Assembly (NCBI RefSeq): GCF_964222135.1
Contig: NZ_CAXQBR010000104.1
Span: 1 to 64,000 of the forward strand
Direction: 5' to 3'
Origin: Euzebya sp.
GTDB lineage: Bacteria; Actinomycetota; Nitriliruptoria; Euzebyales; Euzebyaceae
Length of the DNA stretch: 64,000 bases
In this document: one piece after another, positions 7,977 to 33,948 of the stretch
How the letters are laid out: each line of letters opens with the position of its first letter
Position numbering within the stretch: position 1 is the first letter of the stretch
Program-made: the position numbers and the translations under genes
Notes under the pieces: generated by a model
Told to the model about the DNA's origin: nothing
Seen by the model: the letters and a program-made list of their open reading frames with translations, nothing else
Databases searched by the model: none

Positions 7977-9251
7977 CTAGTGGTCGTGGTCGTCCGACCC
8001 GCCGCGCGGCACCTCGTCGTCGGCGAGCAAGGTCCCGCGGGTCACCGCGAGCTCGCCGAACCGGTCGCGGGCGGCGTCGGCCGCCCGCTCGATCTGCTGC
8101 CAGCGGTCGTCGTCGGTCAGGCTGAGCTGGCGGGCGGCGTCCCCGGGCCCCAGCTTCGACACGCCGACGCCGATCAGACGCACCCGGACGCGCTGCAGCC
8201 GGAGCCCGTCGAGCAGCTCCCCGGCGTGGCGGTACAGCTGGGTGGCGTCGTCGATCGGGTAGTCGAGGGTCACCGACCGCGTCACGGTCTGGAAGTTCGC
8301 GTACCGCAGCTTGAGGGTGATCGTGCGGCCCGACGCGTGGCTGCGGCGGAGGCGGCGCGCGACCCGCTCGCTCAGCCTGAGCAGCTCCCGGCGGAGGACC
8401 TGGGGGTCGTCGACGTCGGCGTCGAAGGTCTCCTCCGCGCTCATCCCCTTGGCCGCCTGATGCGGCACGACCGTCCGGCCGTCCTCCCCCCTCCCCAGCG
8501 CGGTCAGCTGGGTGGCCATCGCCTCGCCGACCAGGCGGCGGAGCGTGTCGGCCGGCAGCTGGCGGAGGTCCCCGACGGTCCTGACCCCGAAGCGGGCCAG
8601 GCGCTCGGCGGTCTTCTCCCCCACCCCCCACAGGTCGCGGACGCCGAGGGGGGCCAGGTAGGCGTCGACGTCGGCGGCCCGCAGGTGGACCACGCCGTCG
8701 GGCTTGGCCTTCTGGCTGCACAGCTTCGCGAGGAACTTGTTCGGGGCGATCCCGACGCTCGCGGGCAGCCCCAGCTCGTCGCGGATCCGCGCGCGGATGT
8801 CGGCCGCGATCCGCTCGGGCGGTCCGAACAGCCGGACGCTGCCGCGCACGTCGAGGAAGGCCTCGTCGAGGGACAGGGGCTCCACCAGCGGGGTCACCGA
8901 GTCGAAGATCGCGCGGATCTGGGCCGACACCTCCCCGTACAGCTCGAAGCGGGGGCTCAGCACCACCGCATCCGGGCACAGCCGCAGCGCCCGCGCCATC
9001 GGCATCGCCGAACTGATCCCGCGCGCCCGTGCCTCGTAGCTGGCGGCCGCGACGACACCCCGGCCGCCGGTGCCGCCGACCAGGACGGGGAGGCCGGCGA
9101 GCTCCGGCCGCTCCCGCACCTCGACGGAGGCGTAGAACGCGTCCATGTCGACGTGGAGGATCGGTTCGGTGGGGGTCGGGACGCGGCGGGGGGCCCAGGC
9201 GCTGCCTGGGTCCCCGGCCCGATCGGGCAGTTCACTTCCGGTCACGTCCAC
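7977..9251 (-). CDS. dinB: DNA polymerase IV (Y-family)
   Basis: Translesion polymerase, 424 aa from GTG 9251 (a GTG two codons later is also possible). Palm motifs are intact: HVDMDAFYASVE near residues 33-44 and LSLDEAFLDV near 130, giving the metal-binding Asp/Asp-Glu set; the thumb helix-hairpin-helix (GVRDLWGVGEKTAERLARFG) and a little-finger domain follow. This is a DinB-type enzyme, not ImuB, because the catalytic acids are present. No LexA-type site was found in the 101-bp gap to the divergent kinase gene. Confidence 0.93.
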   Translation of the reverse strand: MDVTGSELPDRAGDPGSAWAPRRVPTPTEPILHVDMDAFYASVEVRERPELAGLPVLVGGTGGRGVVAAASYEARARGISSAMPMARALRLCPDAVVLSPRFELYGEVSAQIRAIFDSVTPLVEPLSLDEAFLDVRGSVRLFGPPERIAADIRARIRDELGLPASVGIAPNKFLAKLCSQKAKPDGVVHLRAADVDAYLAPLGVRDLWGVGEKTAERLARFGVRTVGDLRQLPADTLRRLVGEAMATQLTALGRGEDGRTVVPHQAAKGMSAEETFDADVDDPQVLRRELLRLSERVARRLRRSHASGRTITLKLRYANFQTVTRSVTLDYPIDDATQLYRHAGELLDGLRLQRVRVRLIGVGVSKLGPGDAARQLSLTDDDRWQQIERAADAARDRFGELAVTRGTLLADDEVPRGGSDDHDH

Positions 9252-11014: not shown

Positions 11015-14000
11015 CTACCGACCCGCCGAACCGGGCGAGGAGTGCCACAGCTTGCGTCCCGGCCCGTGGGCGTCACCTCCGGCGGGGTCGTGGCTTGGGC
11101 AGCCCGGGAGGGTGCAGCGGCGGACGTGGCGGTGATCGGGGTGACGGGGGTCGTTCGGCGACAGCCGCGTGCTGTCCTGGGGGTCGAGCCCGCCGTTGCG
11201 TCCCGCGGGGTCCGCCCACGTCGTGCCGTTCGGGGTGAACCGGGTCGGCCGCCCGACCGGCTCGGCCGGGCCGGCACCGCCGAAGGGGATCGTGCGGCGC
11301 ATCTGCGGGTGCTCGCCCGGCCGGTGGGCGAAGGTCAGCCCGGAGCGGCCTGCGGCACCCCGGATCCCCTCCGACGGTGCGCCGTCGGAGAAGTCGCGGG
11401 CCGCCTGGTCGGTGGGGCGGCCCCCCTCCCCCAGCGCCTCGTCGAGCCACCCCTCCCGCCAGGCCGTCATCAGCCGCCGCAGGTCCCAGGCGCGGGAGGC
11501 GGTGATCGACACGCCCCGCCGGCCGCTGCGGTGCACCCGGCCCTCGGCGACCAGCAGCCAGGTGTGGAACACCGTCCAGGCGCAGGCGTCGTGGACGGAC
11601 TCGAAGAACGTCGCGTCACCGACCCCGGTCGCGTCGTCGAGGGACAGGAAGATCACCCGCTGCCCGGACTTCACCGGCGGGGTCTGGGTGGCGACCTTCA
11701 CCCCGCCGATGCGGACCAGCTGGCCCTCGCGGCAGTCGAGCAGGTCGGCGGCGCGTGTCACCCCCAGGCGGTCCAGCAGGGAGTCGTAGAAGGAGATCAC
11801 GTGCCGGCTCGCGTCCAGGCCGACGACCTCGAGCTCGGCCCGGACCCGCTCGGCGGGCCGGTACTCGGGCAGGCCGGCGGCCTCCTCGGGCTCGAGCAGG
11901 CCCAGCTGCTCGGGCTGGTCGGGCCCGCGGACCTTGTGGCGGGTCAACCCGGACCACCGCTCGGCCACCTCGAGCAGGAGGTCCCGGCGGGTCCGGCCCC
12001 TCCCCTCCCCCACCGCCCCCACCCCGACCCCGACCCCGCCGATGCCGTCGAGGGCGCCGGCGTGGGTGAGGGACTCGGCGACCGGCTGTGACAACCGTGC
12101 GCGCAGGCGCAGGTCGGCGACGGAGGTGAAGGGCCGGCCGAGCAGCAGCGAGTCGATCATGTCGTCGTCGATGCGCTCGACGTCCTGGAGGCCCAGGCGG
12201 ATCGCGTAGCGCCACCCCGGGACGTCGGCCGTGCCCTTGTCGAAGCCCGCCGGCGGGAGCGGCGTGCCGTCTGCTGCCCGCCGCCAGCCCGACGGCAGGC
12301 GCGCCGCGGGATCCCCCACCCCGAGGAGGGCGCTGGGATCAGCGATCCCGAGGAGGGCGTACGCCTCGTCGGCGGGGACCACCTCGACGGTGTAGTCGCG
12401 CGCGGAGGCGTTGACGTCCAACGGCAGGATCGCGACGCCGAACTGGCGGGCGTCCTCGAGGATCAGCCGTCGCGGGTACATGCCGGGGTCGTGGGTCAGC
12501 ACGCCGGCCATGAACTCGGGCAGGTAGTGGGCCTTCAGCCACGCCGAGCGGTACGTCGGCACGCTGAACGCCGCCGCGTGGGCCTTGCAGAACCCGAAGG
12601 AGGCGAACTGGCTGAGGGCATGCCACAGCCAGTCGGCCACCTCCACCGGCAGCCCGCGCTCGGCGGCGCCGGACGTGATCCATCGCTCGAGCTCGCCGAC
12701 CTGGGTGGGGTCGCCGAGGCGGCGGCGGACCAGGTCGGCCTCGGCCAGGTCGCAGCCGGTGACCGCCGCCACCGCTCGCATGACCTGCTCGTGGTAGACG
12801 ATCACGCCGTAGGTCTCGCCCAGTGCGCGCTCGAGGATCGGGTGGGGGACGCCCGTCGCCTCCTGGCGATGGCGGCGGCGCAGGAACGGCTTGATCATGT
12901 CGCCCTTCACCGGGCCGGGGCGGAACAGCGAGATGTCGACGACCAGGTCGTCGAGGTGCTCGGGCTGGAACTTGCCGATCAGCTCGCGCTGGCCGGGCGA
13001 CTCGATCTGGAACATCCCGAGGGTGCGGGTGGACTGGATCAGCTCGTAGGTGTCGGGGTCGGCCCAGCCGACCGCGTCGAAGTCGACATCGACCCCGCGG
13101 GTGCGACGCACCTGCTCGGTGCAGTGGGCCATCGAGCTGAGCATCCGCACGCCGAGCACGTCGAGCTTGCACAGCCCGAGGGCCTCGACGTCGTCCTTGT
13201 CGTACTGGGCCATGGCGAACCCGGCCGCGGAGCGCTCCATCGGGGCGATGTCGCGGAGGGTCCGGTCGGCCAGCAGGATCCCGCAGGGGTGCAGGGCGAT
13301 GTGGCGGGGGAAGCCGTCCAGGCGCTCGACGACGTCCAACAGCAGGCTGTACTGACTGCGCGACCCGTCGCGACGGTGGGCCGCCTCCAGGTTCAGCCCC
13401 TCGAGCTCGGGCAGGTGGGCGAGGGCGGGACGGACGTCGCCGGCACCGACGTGCGGGAAGGACTTGGCGATGTAGTCGACCTCGGCGGCCGGCATCCCCA
13501 TCGCCTTGCCGACCTCGCGGATCGCCATGCGGGCCTTGAACGTCTCGACCATCGCGACGCAGGCGACCCGGTCCTCGCCGTAGGTCCCCAGGAGGTCGCG
13601 GTAGATGTCCTCGCGGCGGGCGGACTCGACGTCGATGTCGATGTCGGGCAGCTCATCGCGGTAGGGGTTCATGAACCGCTCGAACGCGAGGTCGTGGGCG
13701 ACCGGGTCGACGTCGGAGATCCGCAGCGCGTAGGTGACGATCGACCCGGCCGCCGACCCGCGGCAGGCCGCCAGGATCCCCTTGTCGCGGATCCGCTGGA
13801 CGATCTCGGCGACGGTCAGGAAGTACGGGGCCAGGCCCAGGGTGCGGACCATGTCGAGCTCGCGGTCGAGCAGGTGGGTGTGGGTCGCCTCGACGCGCGC
13901 GAACCGCTCGTGGAGCCCGTGCTCGCAGCGCCGGCGCAGCTCGGCCAGGGCCCAGGCCGGATCCGACCCCTCCTCCCGGCCGGGTCCGGTGACGAAGTCG

Positions 14001-14944
14001 GGGACCCGCAGCCGGCCGAGGCCGATGTCGACACCGCACCGCTCGGCCACCCACATCGTGTTCACCAGCGCGTCGGGCCGCTCGGCGAACACCCGCGCCA
14101 TGGCCGCGGCGTCCTTGAAGTGGCCCTCGGCGTTCCTGCGGGTGCGGTGGTGGCGGGCGAGGGGGACCTGCTGGCGGACCGCGTCCATCACGTCGGCGAT
14201 CCTGGCGTCGGCCGGCGTCAGGTACCGGGCGGCCTGGTGGGCGACCGCGCGGACGCCCAGGTCGTCGGCCAGCGCGAAGGTCCGCCGGGCGACGTCGTCG
14301 TCGCCCGGCGCGAGGTGGTGGGTGACGCCGATCAGCAGCCGCTCGGGCCCGAGCAGGTGCAGCCACCGGCGGGTCTCGGCGCGGGCGGCGTCGACCCGCC
14401 CGGCGGCCAGCAGGCGACCGACGGGGGACTCGGCGCCGAGCAGCGCGAAGACGCCGGGGTCAGCCCCGCCGAGGCGGTGCACCACCTGCGCCCAGCGCAG
14501 GTGGGGGTCGGACCGCTCGGACTCGAGGTGGTGGTCGGTGATCGTGCGGGCGAGGGTCGCGAACCCCCGGTCGTCCGCGGCGATCAGCGTGACGCGGGCG
14601 GCGTCGTCCTCGAGCCAGGCCTGCCCGGACCCCGGTCCCATGACCCGCCCGATGCCGCTGCGGGAGGCGCGGGTGATGCCCCACCCCTCACGCACGCGTC
14701 CGCGGTCGTCGGCCTCGGGGAACAGCGCCAGGTCGGCCCCGTAGATCGGGCGCACCCCCGCCTGCCCGCAGGCCTGGGCGAACCGGACCGCGCCGTACAA
14801 CCCCCCGCGGTCGGCGATGCCCACCGCCTCCATGCCGGCCCGCGCCGCGGCCTCGGCCAGCTCGCGCGGCCGGATCACCCCGTCGCGCAGCGAGTAGCAG
14901 GTCCGGGTGGCGAGGTGGGTGACGGCGGGTGCGGCGCTCGGCAT
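11015..14944 (-). CDS. dnaE2: Error-prone DNA polymerase III alpha subunit DnaE2
   Basis: C-family polymerase of the ImuA-ImuB-DnaE2 mutasome type, used for damage-induced mutagenesis. The ATG at 14944 gives 1309 aa starting directly before the PHP domain (HLATRTCYSLRDG); GGAAGG lies 11 nt upstream. The catalytic Asp pair is in PDIDIDVES near residue 430, and helix-hairpin-helix and OB domains follow. It is longer than the roughly 1050-1200 aa usual for DnaE2 because the last about 100 residues form a proline/glycine-rich tail with no recognised domain. A LexA-type site lies 55 nt upstream. imuA and imuB are not in the window. Confidence 0.93.
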   Translation of the reverse strand: MPSAAPAVTHLATRTCYSLRDGVIRPRELAEAAARAGMEAVGIADRGGLYGAVRFAQACGQAGVRPIYGADLALFPEADDRGRVREGWGITRASRSGIGRVMGPGSGQAWLEDDAARVTLIAADDRGFATLARTITDHHLESERSDPHLRWAQVVHRLGGADPGVFALLGAESPVGRLLAAGRVDAARAETRRWLHLLGPERLLIGVTHHLAPGDDDVARRTFALADDLGVRAVAHQAARYLTPADARIADVMDAVRQQVPLARHHRTRRNAEGHFKDAAAMARVFAERPDALVNTMWVAERCGVDIGLGRLRVPDFVTGPGREEGSDPAWALAELRRRCEHGLHERFARVEATHTHLLDRELDMVRTLGLAPYFLTVAEIVQRIRDKGILAACRGSAAGSIVTYALRISDVDPVAHDLAFERFMNPYRDELPDIDIDVESARREDIYRDLLGTYGEDRVACVAMVETFKARMAIREVGKAMGMPAAEVDYIAKSFPHVGAGDVRPALAHLPELEGLNLEAAHRRDGSRSQYSLLLDVVERLDGFPRHIALHPCGILLADRTLRDIAPMERSAAGFAMAQYDKDDVEALGLCKLDVLGVRMLSSMAHCTEQVRRTRGVDVDFDAVGWADPDTYELIQSTRTLGMFQIESPGQRELIGKFQPEHLDDLVVDISLFRPGPVKGDMIKPFLRRRHRQEATGVPHPILERALGETYGVIVYHEQVMRAVAAVTGCDLAEADLVRRRLGDPTQVGELERWITSGAAERGLPVEVADWLWHALSQFASFGFCKAHAAAFSVPTYRSAWLKAHYLPEFMAGVLTHDPGMYPRRLILEDARQFGVAILPLDVNASARDYTVEVVPADEAYALLGIADPSALLGVGDPAARLPSGWRRAADGTPLPPAGFDKGTADVPGWRYAIRLGLQDVERIDDDMIDSLLLGRPFTSVADLRLRARLSQPVAESLTHAGALDGIGGVGVGVGAVGEGRGRTRRDLLLEVAERWSGLTRHKVRGPDQPEQLGLLEPEEAAGLPEYRPAERVRAELEVVGLDASRHVISFYDSLLDRLGVTRAADLLDCREGQLVRIGGVKVATQTPPVKSGQRVIFLSLDDATGVGDATFFESVHDACAWTVFHTWLLVAEGRVHRSGRRGVSITASRAWDLRRLMTAWREGWLDEALGEGGRPTDQAARDFSDGAPSEGIRGAAGRSGLTFAHRPGEHPQMRRTIPFGGAGPAEPVGRPTRFTPNGTTWADPAGRNGGLDPQDSTRLSPNDPRHPDHRHVRRCTLPGCPSHDPAGGDAHGPGRKLWHSSPGSAGR

Positions 14945-14998
14945 CGAGGTGGTGTCCTTCCGACGTGCGGTGACTCCCACGCCGGAGATCCACCGCAT

Positions 14999-15012
14999 CG
15001 AACATGTGTTCG
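14999..15012. promoter_or_regulatory. LexA (SOS) box of dnaE2
   Basis: CGAACATGTGTTCG has both half-sites of the actinobacterial LexA consensus CGAAC-N4-GTTCG without mismatch. It sits 55-68 nt before the dnaE2 ATG, within the 119-nt gap after the diguanylate-cyclase gene. It predicts DNA-damage induction of dnaE2, as known for this family. Confidence 0.88.
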
Positions 15013-15063
15013 CCTACGATGAGTCTGGGGTGCGACATCCCACCCGTCAACCGGACCGTCGCG

Positions 15064-16887
15064 TCAGGTGCCGACATCGCCCACGGCCGTCAGCCCCGGG
15101 CGGGCGGACGCCACCTCGACCCGGTTCCGCCCGCCGGCCTTGGCCCGGTACAGCGCCGCGTCGGCCGCCGCGACGACGTCGCCGGGGTCGCCGCCCGGCG
15201 CGAGCTGCGCGACGCCGAGCGAGGCCGTCACGCCGCCGGCCGCGGGATGGGTCAGGTCGGCCTCGGCGATCGCGGCGCAGAGCCGGTCGGCGAGGACCGT
15301 CGCGGCCGCCAGGTCGGAGTCGCGCGCCAGCACGGCCAGCTCCTCGCCGCCGTAGCGGTACGCGTCGTCGGTCGTCCGGGCTTCGCGGACCAGCACCTCG
15401 GCCACCGCTCGCAGCACCGCGTCGCCGTGCTGGTGGCCTCACTCGTCGTTCAGCCGCTTGAAGTGGTCGAGGTCGATCAGGACCAGCGACACGTCCCGGC
15501 CGCCGCGGGCGCTGAGGGAGGCCTCGACCGCGAGGTCCGCGTCGAACCGCCGGCGGTTGTACAGGCCGGTCAGGCCGTCCCGCTCCGCGGCATCCGCCGT
15601 CCGGGAGGCCACCCGCGCGGCTCGCAGGGCGGCACCGGCCTGGATCGCGAGCAGCTCGAGCGGCGCGGTGCGAGCCTCGAGGCGCGTCCGATCGCCGCGC
15701 ACCTCGAGGACCCCGACGACCGACGCGCCCACGACCATGGGGACGGCCATCACGTGGTGGTCCCGGCCGGCGCGCAGCTGCGTCCGCGCATCCCGTGCGG
15801 CGCCGCCCACGGCCCCCTCCCCAAGGGCGACCGACGCGAGCACGTCCGCGGTGGTGCTGTGCACCGGGTGGAGCAGGTCCTCGTCGCCGAGCAGCCACAC
15901 CGTCGCCGTCGCGGCCTCGACCATCTCCGCAGCCGCGACGGCGACCCGCCGCGAGACCTCCGCCGGGGAGTGGCTGCCCGCGACGTCCCGCGCGACGTCG
16001 ACCACGGTGGCTGACATCAGCGCCTGCTCCTCGGCGTCGGCGCGGGCCCTGCCCAGGGCGGCGTGGTCGGCCTCGAGCGCGTCGGCCATCGCCGCCAGCC
16101 CCTCCGACAGCTCCGCGAGCTCGGCCGGCGCCCCCGACTGCGGCCGGGCGGTGAGGTCGCCGGTCCGCATCCGCGCCAAGGTGTCGAGCAGGTCGGTCAC
16201 CGGCTGCTCGATCCCGCGCACCAGCCGCGAGCGGGCGTGGCGGGCGCTGACCAGCAGGGCGAGGGACAGGGCGGCCACGACGGACACGCCCACCTGGATC
16301 GCCACGCGCTCCTCGCGCATGGCTGCATCCCGCCGCGCGACGACCATCCCGGTCGCCACGTCGTTGGCGGCGCGGTACTCCTCGAACAGGGCCATGCCCT
16401 GGAGGAGCACCCGCCGGAGCTGCGGGCGGCCGATGTCCTCGACCTCGAGGTCGGTGACGACGTCGGCCCACCCGGTCACCCACCGCTCCTGGGCCATCAG
16501 GACGTCGACGACGGCGACGCCGAGGCCACCGGTGACCAGCCGGTTGCGGGCGACGTCGGCCGTCAGCTCGGCCCGCTGCACCACCCCGTCGCGGTACGGC
16601 GCCAAGAACGCGTCGTCACCGGTGGCCAGCCACCCCCGGATGCCGGTCTCCTGGTCCAGCATCGCCTCGTGGGAGCGGCGGAGGTCCCGGGTGAGGTCGG
16701 TGATGTCGCGCAGACGGGGGTGGATCGCGCCGAGGACCAGGGTCGCCACGACCGCCACCGCCAGGCACAGGACGCCGGCCGCGGCGATGAGGGTGCGCTG
16801 CTGCCGACGGGCGTCGGCGATCAGGCTGGGCCGCGCGGCCGCGTCCGTCGCGAGCTCCGTCCTGCGGCGGGTCCGGGACGTGGGCAC
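15064..16887 (-). pseudogene. CHASE3-HAMP-GAF-GGDEF protein interrupted by an in-frame TGA
   Basis: Would encode a 606-aa diguanylate cyclase, but codon TGA at 15439-15441 splits the GGDEF domain. From GTG 16887 the first part (482 aa) has a transmembrane helix, a CHASE3 sensor (DQETGIRGWLATGDDAFLAPY region), a second helix, HAMP and GAF, and stops just after FKRLNDE. The same frame continues with GHQHGDAVLRAV and a perfect GGEEL signature to 15064, so no other lesion is seen. The family normally has one residue (often Arg, CGA) where the TGA stands, so a single C-to-T change explains it. It may be a true nonsense mutation, a sequencing error or a readthrough site. Confidence 0.8.
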
Positions 16888-16958
16888 ACCGCTGAGATCG
16901 GTGCGCGGGGCGCCGACCTGAGCGGTGGCCGCTCAGCCTCGGGCCCCAGCTGCGGGAC

Positions 16959-17159
16959 TCAGGCGCGGTCGTCGGCGAGCGGACCACGCTCGTGGCGGCG
17001 GAGCCACCGGGCGAGACGGCGGAGGCCCTTCACGACGATGCCGTCACCGCGCCGCTCGCACCAGGCGTCGCTGAAGCGGTCGAGCAGCCACACGACGACG
17101 GGCAGCGCCAGCCCGGCGATCACCCAGCGGCGGAGCGGTCGCCAGACGAGGAAGCCCAC
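16959..17159 (-). CDS. Small membrane protein, unknown function
   Basis: 66 aa from GTG 17159, one base after the stop of the 52-aa gene upstream, so probably translationally coupled to it. One hydrophobic helix (about residues 13-26, WVIAGLALPVVVWLLDRF) is followed by a basic, Arg-rich cytoplasmic tail. No family was recognised. It ends about 70 nt before the diguanylate-cyclase gene on the same strand. Confidence 0.6.
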   Translation of the reverse strand: MGFLVWRPLRRWVIAGLALPVVVWLLDRFSDAWCERRGDGIVVKGLRRLARWLRRHERGPLADDRA

Positions 17160-17160
17160 G

Positions 17161-17319
17161 TCAGCGCAGGAAGCGGCGGAGGATGGAGCTCAACCCGCCG
17201 CGGCGTCCGGTGGTCGTCGTCGCCGGGCGCCGGCGGGTCGTCGTGGCCGTACCGCGTCGGCGGCCGCTCATCATCGAGCCGACGCGCTGGAGGATCCGTC
17301 CGATCGAGTTCGTGTTCAT
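17161..17319 (-). CDS. 52-aa basic protein, unknown function
   Basis: Short gene from ATG 17319 with an excellent Shine-Dalgarno GGAGG 6 nt upstream, which is the main reason to call it. The product is rich in Arg and Thr/Gly, with amphipathic ends (NSIGRILQRVGSMM at the start, LSSILRRFLR at the end) and a low-complexity Thr/Arg centre. It overlaps nothing and is coupled to the 66-aa membrane protein downstream. No homologous family was recognised. Confidence 0.65.
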   Translation of the reverse strand: MNTNSIGRILQRVGSMMSGRRRGTATTTRRRPATTTTGRRGGLSSILRRFLR

Positions 17320-17391
17320 AGGACCCTCCTAACCGGACCGACCGCGCCCAACACGCGTCCACCTGGCCACTGGGCTGCCATCCTCGGAGGG

Positions 17392-17934
17392 GTGGACGAC
17401 ATCTCCCCGCCCGACCGCTGGGCCGAGCGCACCATCGACGACGTGCTGTCCCCGGACGTGCGGCTGCTGCTGGTGGGGATCAACCCCGGCCGACGGTCGG
17501 CCGAGCTGAACCGCCACTTCGCCGGGCCCGGCAACCGGTTCTGGCCAGCCCTGTCGGCGAGCGGCCTGGTGCCCGGGCCGATCGGGCCGGCCGAGCAGCA
17601 CGAGCTGCCGGCGCACGGGATCGGCATCACCAACCTGGTGGCGCGCGCCACCGCGACGGCTGCGGAGGTGACCCGCGAGGAGCTGCGCGCGGGCGGCGCC
17701 GCGCTGGTCGAGCGGATCGCGTGGACGGACGTCCGGGTCGTCGCCGTGCTGGGCGTCACCGCCTACCGCGTGGCGTTCGCCGCCCCCCGTGCCGCCCGCG
17801 GGCCGCAACCCGACCGGCCCGGGTGGTGGCTGATGGACAACCCGAGCGGGCTCAACGCCCACGCCCAGGTCCCCGAGCTGGCCCGGCAGATCGCGGCAGC
17901 CGGTCGGGCGGCCGGGCTCGTGGGCGGCGGGTGA
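17392..17934 (+). CDS. mug: G/U mismatch-specific DNA glycosylase (Mug family)
   Basis: Base-excision repair glycosylase removing uracil or related lesions from mismatches with G. The 180-aa frame from GTG 17392 carries the Mug motifs GINPG (active-site Asn) and HFAGPGNRFWPAL near residues 39-51, and the C-terminal loop NPSGLNAH. The start is not certain: no ATG is available, and GGAGG lies almost directly against the GTG, too close for a standard ribosome site. It converges with the dioxygenase gene with a 3-nt gap. Confidence 0.9.
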   Translation: MDDISPPDRWAERTIDDVLSPDVRLLLVGINPGRRSAELNRHFAGPGNRFWPALSASGLVPGPIGPAEQHELPAHGIGITNLVARATATAAEVTREELRAGGAALVERIAWTDVRVVAVLGVTAYRVAFAAPRAARGPQPDRPGWWLMDNPSGLNAHAQVPELARQIAAAGRAAGLVGGG

Positions 17935-31592: not shown

Positions 31593-32210
31593 ATGTCTCC
31601 GCCGACGGACGCGACGACGACGTTCCGACGACCTGGGGGGCGTCGGGGGCGGGCACGCCTGACGACGCTGCTCGACGCCGCCGAGGCGCTGGTCGTCGAC
31701 GGCGACGTGGACGCGATCACGCTGGATGCGGTCGCCGAGCGGGCGTCGCTGCCGCTGTCGACGGTCCGCGCCCAGGCTGACGACGTCCGGGCGCTGTTCG
31801 ACCAGCTGGTCCTGCGCCTGCTCGACCGCCACGACGCGGTGCTGAACCGGGCGCTGCCGACCGAACCCGAACCGCTGGTCGAGGTGGCGGCCGGGGTCTA
31901 CGACACCTACGTCGCGCACTACCGCGCCGTCCCGGCCTTCCGTGCGCTGCGGTGCTCGTCGCGGTTCACCGACCGCCACCGCGAGTGGTTCGATCGGCGG
32001 GTGCGCCGGATGCTGATCCGCGTCCAGAGCCGGACCGTCCCGACGAACCTGACCGTCGAGCAGCTGCGGATCCCCTGGACGGTCGCCGACGCGATGCTCG
32101 AGGCGGCGTTCCGCCACGAGCCCGACGGCGACCCGGTGCTGATCGATGAGGGCCGTGCCCTGGTCCGCAACTCCGTCGAGCGGCTGGTCACCGCGACCGC
32201 CGCGGTCTAG
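31593..32210 (+). CDS. TetR-family transcriptional regulator
   Basis: 205 aa. The N-terminal helix-turn-helix spans about residues 22-67 (LTTLLDAAEALV, ITLDAVAERASLPLSTVRAQ), followed by an all-helical ligand domain with FRALRCSSRFTDRHREWFDRR. The recognition helix departs somewhat from the TetR norm (no KxxLF Tyr pattern). It ends 6 nt before the convergent DUF6504 gene. Its target genes cannot be inferred; no palindrome was noticed at its own promoter. Confidence 0.85.
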   Translation: MSPPTDATTTFRRPGGRRGRARLTTLLDAAEALVVDGDVDAITLDAVAERASLPLSTVRAQADDVRALFDQLVLRLLDRHDAVLNRALPTEPEPLVEVAAGVYDTYVAHYRAVPAFRALRCSSRFTDRHREWFDRRVRRMLIRVQSRTVPTNLTVEQLRIPWTVADAMLEAAFRHEPDGDPVLIDEGRALVRNSVERLVTATAAV

Positions 32211-32216
32211 CCGGCG

Positions 32217-32504
32217 TCAGTCCCAGACCCGGTCGAGGCGCCAGGTGCCGCCCTCGGCCACGAGCTCGTAGATGCCCCGTGTCGGAGTTCCGTTCTGCGC
32301 CTCCACCCGCCACAGGTCCCGTTGGGGCACCTCCACCCCTCCCCCGGTCCAGTACGCCGCGTCCTCGCGCCAGTGCCCCAGGACCGCCAGCACCCGGTAG
32401 CGGCCGCCCCGCCAGGTGAACCCGGCGGGGACCGCCCGGTCCTCGGCGGTGCTGTCGGCGTCGTCGACGTGGACCTCGACGGGTTCCCGGTATCGCTTCG
32501 TCAT
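32217..32504 (-). CDS. DUF6504 family protein, probable SOS-regulated
   Basis: 95 aa from ATG 32504, with CAGGAG 5 nt upstream. The sequence matches DUF6504: REPVEVHVDD near the start, the central PAGFTWRGGRYRVLAVLGHW, and the C-terminal GIYELVAEGGTWRLDRVWD. From memory, such genes in actinobacteria are usually found next to imuB or dnaE2, suggesting a role in damage-induced mutagenesis. Here it is about 17 kb from dnaE2, but its promoter has a LexA-like box. Transcripts would have a 5' UTR of about 138 nt with a hairpin. Confidence 0.85.
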   Translation of the reverse strand: MTKRYREPVEVHVDDADSTAEDRAVPAGFTWRGGRYRVLAVLGHWREDAAYWTGGGVEVPQRDLWRVEAQNGTPTRGIYELVAEGGTWRLDRVWD

Positions 32505-32554
32505 CGTCGCTCCTGGGTGCGGAGGGGAGATCGATGACCGTCGGGAAGGGAGCA

Positions 32555-32598
32555 GGGACGGGTGGTGTCGCGCCTTCCCAACGCGACCCACCCGTCCC
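32555..32598 (-). other. Stable hairpin in the 5' UTR of the DUF6504 gene
   Basis: The outer arms (32555-32564 and 32589-32598) pair over 10 bp, GGGACGGGTG with CACCCGTCCC; after a small bulge TCGCG pairs with CGCGA; the loop is about 9 nt. It lies between the LexA-controlled promoter and the gene start. It could be an attenuator or a terminator for the upstream rocD transcript (rocD ends at 32704); no T-tract follows. Confidence 0.55.
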
Positions 32599-32648
32599 TG
32601 CAGGCGGTCTCCCGGACGGCTGGGGGATGCGCCGTCTCAGGAGCCACC

Positions 32649-32678
32649 ATCGTACATGTGTTCGATCTCGTGCGTCAA
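32649..32678 (-). promoter_or_regulatory. Promoter with LexA-like box upstream of DUF6504
   Basis: Read leftward, TTGACG (32673-32678) and TACGAT (32649-32654) form a sigma-70-type promoter with an 18-nt spacer. Within it, TCGAACACATGTACGA (32650-32665) matches the TCGAAC-N4-GTTCGA LexA consensus at all but one base, and that base belongs to the -10 element. LexA bound here would block the promoter. Confidence 0.72.
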
Positions 32679-32703
32679 CCGGGTTGTCGTCACCCGACCG
32701 GCA

Positions 32704-33948
32704 TCACCCGAGCACGTCGACCATGCGGTCGACGATCCAGTCCGCCTCCTCCGCGGTGATCACCAGCGGGGGCGCCAACCGGATGGTCGTCTCGTGGGTG
32801 TCCTTCGCGAGGAGGCCGGCGGGGCCTGCCGGCCCATCCACCTGGGCGGACAGCAGCGCCTCGCAGTAGCGGCGGGCCGGCGGGTCGGCGTCGACCAGCT
32901 CCACGCCGAGCCACAGCCCCCGGGCGCGCACCTCCCGCACCCGCGGCAGGTCGGCCGCCCGGAGCCGTGCGGCCATCCGCGCCCCCAGCTCGTCGGCGTT
33001 CCGCTGGTGGGACCCCTCCGCCAGGAGGGCCACGACCTCGCGGCCGACGGCGCAGGCCAGCGGGTTCCCGCCGAAGGTCGACCCGTGCTGGCCCGGCCGG
33101 ATCACCCCGAGCACGTCGGTCCGCCCGACCACGGCCGACAGCGGCACGATGCCCCCGCCGAGGGCCTTGCCCAGCAGGAGCAGGTCAGGGCGGACGTCCT
33201 CGTGGTCGCAGGCGAACGTCCGGCCGGTGCGCCCGAGCCCCGACTGGATCTCGTCGGCGATCAGCAGCACCCCCTCGGCGTCGCAGATCTCGCGGACGTC
33301 CCGCAAGTAGCCGTCGGGCGGGATGACCACGCCGGCCTCCCCCTGGATCGGCTCGATGAGGACCGCGGCGGTGCGGGGGGTGATCGCGTCGGCGATGGCG
33401 TCCGCCCGGCCGTAGGGCACGCGCACGAAGCCCGGCGTGTAGGGGCCGAAGTGGTCGTGGGCGAGGGGATCGTCTGAGAAGGACACGATCGTGGTGGTGC
33501 GGCCGTGGAAGTTGCCCTCGGCGACGATGATCTCCGCCGTCCCGTCGGGGACGCCCTTGACCTCGTAGGCCCACTTGCGGGCGGTCTTGATGCCCGTCTC
33601 CACCGCCTCCGCGCCGGTGTTCATGGGCAGCACCAGCCCGGCCGGCCGCCCGTCGGCGTCGACCTCGATGCGGCACAGGTCGACCAGCTCGGCGCAGAAG
33701 GGGCCCAGCTGGTCGTTGTGGAAGGCCCGGCTGGTCAGGGTGAGCCGGTCGAGCTGGGCCCGCGCCGCCGCGACCAGGCGCGGGTGGCCGTGCCCGAAGT
33801 TGAGCGCGGAGTACGCCGCCAGGGCGTCGAGGTAGCGGCGACCGTCCTCGTCGGTCACGTAGGCCCCGGACGCGGTGGCGATCACGACCGGCAGCGGGTG
33901 GTAGTTGCGCGCGCCGAAGCGCTCCTCGAGCTGCAGTGCCAGCGACAT
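32704..33948 (-). CDS. rocD: Ornithine aminotransferase
   Basis: Class III PLP aminotransferase, 414 aa from ATG 33948, converting ornithine to glutamate-5-semialdehyde. It shows RNYHPLPVVI near the start, NTGAEAVETGIKTARKW, the dihydrophobic DEIQSGLGRTG, and the PLP lysine in LLLGKALGGGIVPLSAV near residue 250. The start overlaps the stop of the upstream arginine-degrading gene by one base (TGATG), indicating translational coupling and a shared pathway: arginine to ornithine to glutamate semialdehyde. Confidence 0.94.
   Translation of the reverse strand: MSLALQLEERFGARNYHPLPVVIATASGAYVTDEDGRRYLDALAAYSALNFGHGHPRLVAAARAQLDRLTLTSRAFHNDQLGPFCAELVDLCRIEVDADGRPAGLVLPMNTGAEAVETGIKTARKWAYEVKGVPDGTAEIIVAEGNFHGRTTTIVSFSDDPLAHDHFGPYTPGFVRVPYGRADAIADAITPRTAAVLIEPIQGEAGVVIPPDGYLRDVREICDAEGVLLIADEIQSGLGRTGRTFACDHEDVRPDLLLLGKALGGGIVPLSAVVGRTDVLGVIRPGQHGSTFGGNPLACAVGREVVALLAEGSHQRNADELGARMAARLRAADLPRVREVRARGLWLGVELVDADPPARRYCEALLSAQVDGPAGPAGLLAKDTHETTIRLAPPLVITAEEADWIVDRMVDVLG

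Follow-up and report, generated by a model that had tools for sequence, protein, structure and literature searches.

A putative LexA operator in the core promoter of a DUF6504 gene, a probable stand-alone ImuB-C member of a split DnaE2 module in Euzebya sp.

The DUF6504 locus and its putative LexA operator

The window, the whole 64-kb stretch of Euzebya sp. DNA analysed here, carries genes for a DUF6504 protein, DnaE2 and a Y-family polymerase, together with two putative LexA boxes and a structured leader (Table 1). The box and promoter of the DUF6504 gene occupy a 199-nt gap between the stop codon of an aminotransferase gene (32704) and the DUF6504 start codon (ATG, 32504). Because both genes bordering this gap lie on the minus strand and the next gene past DUF6504, a TetR-like gene at 31593-32210 (plus strand), is convergent, DUF6504 is the sole plausible target of the box.

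Table 1. Positions of the genes and regulatory features in the window
Feature	Positions	Strand	Remarks
LexA box TCGAACACATGTACGA (putative operator)	32650-32665	-	Motif match and conservation
-10 element TACGAT	32649-32654	-	Includes the non-consensus A of the box; kept in 4/4 genus genomes
-35 element TTGACG	32673-32678	-	Spacer to -10, 18
Structured RNA leader	32539-32606	-	Match to covariance model R1, 67.7 bits
Leader hairpin	32552-32601	-	Conserved loop TTGGGAAGG, 32573-32581
CCTTCCC, putative pseudoknot partner	32543-32549	-	Complementary to hairpin loop GGGAAGG
AGGAGCG, ribosome-binding-site-like	32508-32514	-	
DUF6504 gene, stand-alone ImuB-C family protein, 95 aa	32217-32504	-	PF20114, hhalign, structure model
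Second LexA box GCGAACACATGTTCGA (putative)	14998-15013	-	Directly upstream of dnaE2
dnaE2	11015-14944	-	Start inferred at ATG 14944; ORF open from 14998
Y-family polymerase gene, DinB/Pol IV type	7977-9251	-	DxD, DE residues, QLSL clamp motif

The first-pass annotation had described a box one base off the SOS consensus, and its sequence and coordinates proved exact: TCGAACACATGTACGA differs from the actinobacterial consensus TCGAACNNNNGTTCGA by a single mismatch, T13 to A. The positions given for the odd base inside TACGAT and for TTGACG 18 nt upstream were likewise confirmed, and with them the overlap of the LexA box with the core promoter. The TTGACG/TACGAT pair is the only sigma-70-like match within 32400-32800 (mean of 0.0 in shuffles), and a TTGAC/TACGAT pair with such geometry occurs once in the window.

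The further proposal that the odd base itself forms the -10 element is supported by comparison, since the T13-to-A substitution is fixed in the genus (4/4 genomes) and specific to the DUF6504 box, being found in none of the 67 other DUF6504 boxes examined, nor in the dnaE2 boxes of the same four genomes. In each of the four genus boxes, GTACGA is followed by T, giving TACGAT within the operator; the corresponding -35 variants (TTGACG, TTGTCG or a weak TTGCAG) lie 17-18 nt upstream, that of G002 being poor. Among the DUF6504 boxes examined, the built-in -10 is confined to this one genus. In most genomes of the order, TTGAC-N17/18-TAcggT instead precedes a palindromic box that begins ~6-13 nt past the -10 and overlies the presumed start site. 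An operator base that would make a -10 element in a single genus is apparently new.

As expected of a LexA regulon member, the promoter holds a TCGAAC-N4-GTTCGA-type box, which has one mismatch, sits inside the core promoter and is conserved. In a sample of 54 loci, some of them from other classes of the phylum, 45 have a box no more than one mismatch from the consensus in the 300 nt preceding DUF6504; further windows of this length from the same loci have one in 4 of 466 cases (Fisher p ~5e-51, a value that overstates independence because the loci are phylogenetically related), and simulated sequences in 0.1%. The gene is present in 50 of 61 relatives. Every class genome with DUF6504 (50/50; 30 + 20 loci) has an upstream box within two mismatches, and 45 of the 50 have one within a single mismatch; that of G006, of the latter kind, sits at -395. 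Conservation of the box upstream of DUF6504 across Actinomycetota, which the first-pass annotation had named as a check, was thereby borne out, and this phylum-wide LexA box appears to be new.

The wider genome provides a setting for such a regulon. Across 5.06 Mb, 34 sites have at most one mismatch, versus 5 for a reversed control pattern, and the two that fall in the window are those at DUF6504 and dnaE2. The genome encodes a LexA with DNA-binding and S24 domains, whose gene has a box of the same type (GCGAACATCCGTTCGA) upstream; the recA promoter has ACGAACACGCGTTCGA, and further boxes lie upstream of uvrD-like, exonuclease and 2OG-Fe(II) oxygenase (AlkB-like) genes. As lexA, recA and repair genes all carry sites, this organism appears to use the motif as its SOS box.

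Several of these loci have features of their own. At the recA locus (L012, G000:C16:17480-20495), an intein-like insertion with LAGLIDADG and intein-splicing matches follows RecA residue 73. A helix-turn-helix (excisionase-like) gene starts at the LexA-like box TAGAACGGATGTTCGA at L078 (G000:C41:41560-44575), possibly marking a mobile element under SOS control. At L083 (G000:C83:25052-28067), the LexA-like box TCGAACACACGTTCTA immediately precedes a 2OG-Fe(II) oxygenase (AlkB-like) gene.

Family assignment of DUF6504 and its linkage to dnaE2

ImuB-C was named in 2013 by Aravind and colleagues, and stand-alone forms were described (PMC3765255). DUF6504, which the first-pass annotation had regarded as lacking an assigned function, is placed in this family by PF20114 and hhalign. 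The 95-aa protein of the window matches PF20114 at 57.8 bits (cut-off 24.2), and the same model scores 26.0 bits, over the curated cut-off of 24.2, on the plasmid-encoded ImuB of Rhizobium lusitanum (507 aa), aligning with residues 429-504; this match to an ImuB C-terminus argues that DUF6504 corresponds to ImuB-C. Roseomonas ImuB scores 18.8 bits, under the Pfam cut-off, and a search of Cupriavidus ImuB with PF20114 gave no match. By hhalign, a profile of 49 DUF6504 proteins matched the C-termini of three ImuB proteins with a probability of 96.4% and a pairwise E of 1.2e-9. The structure model is all-beta with seven strands (pLDDT 83.8), and a conserved C-terminal tryptophan, W94, is kept in at least 90% of DUF6504 proteins. 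Searches of the PDB by sequence and by fold returned no significant match to the protein, in agreement with the published description of ImuB-C as a beta-barrel without close PDB relatives (PMC12926913). NCBIfam gave no DUF6504 match, no mention of DUF6504 by name was found in the literature searched, and a single-protein search for DUF6504 retrieved five named loci, all from Nitriliruptoria. Membership of DUF6504 in the ImuB-C family is thus well supported by profile comparison.

The first-pass annotation had also placed the SOS link at a distance from dnaE2. A link independent of dnaE2 is not supported, as DUF6504 normally adjoins dnaE2 on its upstream side. Indeed, dnaE2 is the next gene after DUF6504 in f4 and f5 relatives, in many more distant families and in most of the other Actinomycetota in the sample; a 'DUF6504 family protein' is also annotated 6 nt ahead of dnaE2 on a plasmid of Arthrobacter. 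The two genes are 10-21 kb apart in the genus of the window and 6-17 kb apart in family f3, always with the same strand and order; in some f4 genomes, the gap is 1.5-6 kb. Wherever DUF6504, dnaE2 and the polymerase gene share one contig, the polymerase gene comes after dnaE2. Unsplit operons usually have the single box of the 18-kb stretch ahead of DUF6504. In the split genomes, dnaE2 has a box of its own in 20/20 cases within two mismatches and in 17/20 within one, these 20 being the genomes from which the region ahead of dnaE2 was retrieved on account of its separation from DUF6504. Because both parts carry a LexA box after separation, selection would seem to maintain their induced co-expression; a split module with duplicated LexA-box control is apparently new. 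Between dnaE2 and DUF6504, the window also contains an ORF (16063-17934, plus strand) with a C-terminal uracil-DNA glycosylase superfamily domain.

The gene at 7977-9251 is the only confident Y-family (IMS) polymerase gene of the genome, and its product has a RecA-NT-like tail, as judged by eye. It has no upstream LexA box within two mismatches, and an opposite-strand gene separates it from dnaE2; thus, co-induction of this polymerase is unsupported. Several near-complete genomes of the order that lack DUF6504 (f2, G015) contain an additional divergent, ImuB-like IMS gene, which suggests that the stand-alone domain has given way there to a fused ImuB.

A module of DnaE2, stand-alone ImuB-C and PolY-RecA is of a known kind (PMC6511836, PMC12926913, PMC8072749). 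Modules of DnaE2, stand-alone ImuB-C and PolY/RecA have been published (PMC3765255, PMC6511836, PMC12926913), the papers describing them dating from 2013-2026, and a Deinococcus imuB-C operon is under RecA/LexA control (PMC8072749). Like the DnaE2B-[ImuB-C]-PolY-RecA module of Actinobacteria (PMC12926913), the present system combines a stand-alone ImuB-C, DnaE2 and an apparently active Y-family polymerase in a genome with no clear ImuB; linkage, gene order and the single confident IMS gene were seen, whereas the RecA-NT motif was judged by eye only. The present system departs from that module in having its genes spread across 25 kb, separate LexA boxes at ImuB-C and dnaE2, and a structured RNA leader ahead of ImuB-C; the paper in question mentions neither LexA nor DUF6504. 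The Deinococcus deserti system (PMC8072749) shares the stand-alone ImuB-C and DnaE2 under RecA/LexA control, which is experimental there and predicted here. It forms one lexA-led operon with an inactive PolY, whereas here lexA lies elsewhere, the genes are scattered and the polymerase appears to be active. The mycobacterial imuA'-imuB / dnaE2 cassette is similarly split, with SOS control of each part (putative here), but there ImuB-C forms part of an inactive polymerase and ImuA' accompanies it; neither feature is apparent here.

The structured leader of DUF6504

The stretch from the box to the DUF6504 start codon contains a hairpin of 20 bp (MFE -47.1 kcal/mol, z -6.4). When 16 leaders from the order are aligned, 14 pairs form the consensus, and at 10 of these both partners vary. 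Paired cells make up 88.2% of this alignment versus 76.6% in shuffles, and the covariation score is 0.438 versus 0.218; none of 500 shuffles reached either the observed paired-cell share or the observed score, and pairing fell to 38-54% in slid controls. At E<=0.05, a covariance model of the leader gave one match in each of 20 genomes from the order, and all inspected matches lay in the DUF6504 leader. Matches included G010, G014, G025 and G026 even though these were outside the model, G026 being very close to a member. Among the 23 order genomes with DUF6504, 20 thus match at this threshold and a 21st does so weakly, as against none of the seven without the gene. Three weaker matches elsewhere (G054, G015 and G030; E 0.08-0.4) are probably due to chance. 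The model found no match in other sampled classes, and Rfam gave none up to E=1 for seven leader loci.

The loop motif GGGAAG is near invariant among the leaders. The exact loop complement CCTTCCC occurs downstream in 13 of 21 leaders, where 0.4% would be expected, which suggests that the GGGAAGG loop and the downstream CCTTCCC form a pseudoknot. A pseudoknot-like leader before DUF6504 is apparently new. In L035 (G006:C1:56745-60005), tandem GGGCCCACCTCCCCAGGGTTTGTCTGCC-like units lie between the hairpin and the start codon. A coding role for the leader, with an ORF open to GTG 32591, was considered and rejected: open lengths differ in other genomes, and the hairpin covaries.

The two arms of the leader stem make up an extended and almost perfect inverted repeat of G and C in a GC-rich genome, as would befit a protein-bound DNA palindrome or a transcription attenuator instead of a regulatory RNA. 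This reading is possible but doubtful, as wobble cells on the sense strand comprise 22 G-U against 4 A-C, an excess that indicates a sense RNA, and the window leader scores 67.7 bits in the sense direction versus 25.3 in the antisense. The near-invariant loop with its recurrent complement speaks against it as well, as does the finding of no terminator-like U-run at the leader. The leading guess is that the leader acts in translational control. A roughly even case can be made for the more specific proposal that it represents a new class of cis-regulatory RNA which, once LexA is released, would control the translation or the stability of a subunit of the SOS mutasome, possibly by binding the DUF6504 protein itself.

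Proposed mechanism and implications

Taken together, DUF6504 very likely provides a DnaE2 translesion-synthesis module with its ImuB-C subunit, in stand-alone form, as a member of the LexA regulon. The sequence basis of this reading covers the box, its promoter overlap and conservation, family membership, the split and the RNA covariation. A LexA dimer bound at 32650-32665 would cover the promoter spacer and the -10 element and so block RNA polymerase. Upon DNA damage, RecA-stimulated self-cleavage of LexA would release DUF6504 along with dnaE2, which has its own box at 14998-15013. The small, beta-rich DUF6504 protein would presumably then bridge DnaE2 to a RecA-bound Y-family polymerase; following published models, in which ImuB-C is docked against the PHP domain of DnaE2 (PMC12926913, 2026), the contact to DnaE2 may be made through this domain. 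The folded leader probably adds a post-transcriptional layer of control. The ancestral arrangement was probably one operon, DUF6504-dnaE2-polY, under a single box, with the genes later pushed apart in the order of the window.

Other explanations bear on different steps of this scheme. The box is vanishingly unlikely to be a palindromic 16-mer that fits the consensus by accident in a genome rich in GC: several one-mismatch sites in the genome are intragenic and probably no operators (L007 and L082, in coding DNA, were left out of the regulon members), but comparative conservation is overwhelming and refutes this explanation as far as sequence can. It is very unlikely that another damage regulator, of the PafBC type acting on RecA-NDp promoters, mainly drives the promoter with LexA in a secondary role. 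A TGTCR-N11-TAnnnT motif does occur just upstream of the box in 22 of 71 DUF6504 promoters (expected fraction, 0.0004), yet it is absent from the genus of the window and from most of the order, and the near-universal feature is the LexA box. LexA control may, on the other hand, be real while DUF6504 serves a DinB-like repair polymerase or other repair enzymes, not DnaE2, as a damage-recognition or accessory protein. Stand-alone ImuB-C genes are indeed found beside DinB, Ku/ligase and photolyase genes as well (PMC3765255), the genome has a Pol IV-type polymerase, and DUF6504 no longer shares an operon with dnaE2 in this order. Nevertheless, this role is unlikely, given that the linkage to dnaE2 on the same strand and in the same order persists there with both genes keeping their boxes, that the two genes are adjacent in most other sampled lineages, and that most near-complete genomes of the class without DUF6504 (f2, G015) have the divergent ImuB-like IMS gene.

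The promoters with TGTCR-N11-TAnnnT belong to f4, f12 and f38 relatives (e.g., L051, L065 and L034) and resemble RecA-NDp/PafBC promoters, suggesting dual damage control by LexA and a PafBC-like regulator in those relatives. The dnaE2 promoter of the window has a partial version of the TGTCR type, ATGTCGCAC-N8-CATCGT.

With DUF6504 as the probable ImuB-C subunit, a domain of unknown function is placed in the SOS mutagenesis machinery and tied to LexA across a phylum. The structured leader, if its regulatory role is true, would be a second, post-transcriptional gate on induced mutagenesis, for which the literature searched showed no counterpart. The operator that contains its own -10 offers a concrete case of a regulatory site that may have evolved from start-site to core-promoter occlusion. 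Finally, the split operons amount to a natural experiment, in which the separated ImuB-C and dnaE2 genes have each kept a putative LexA box.
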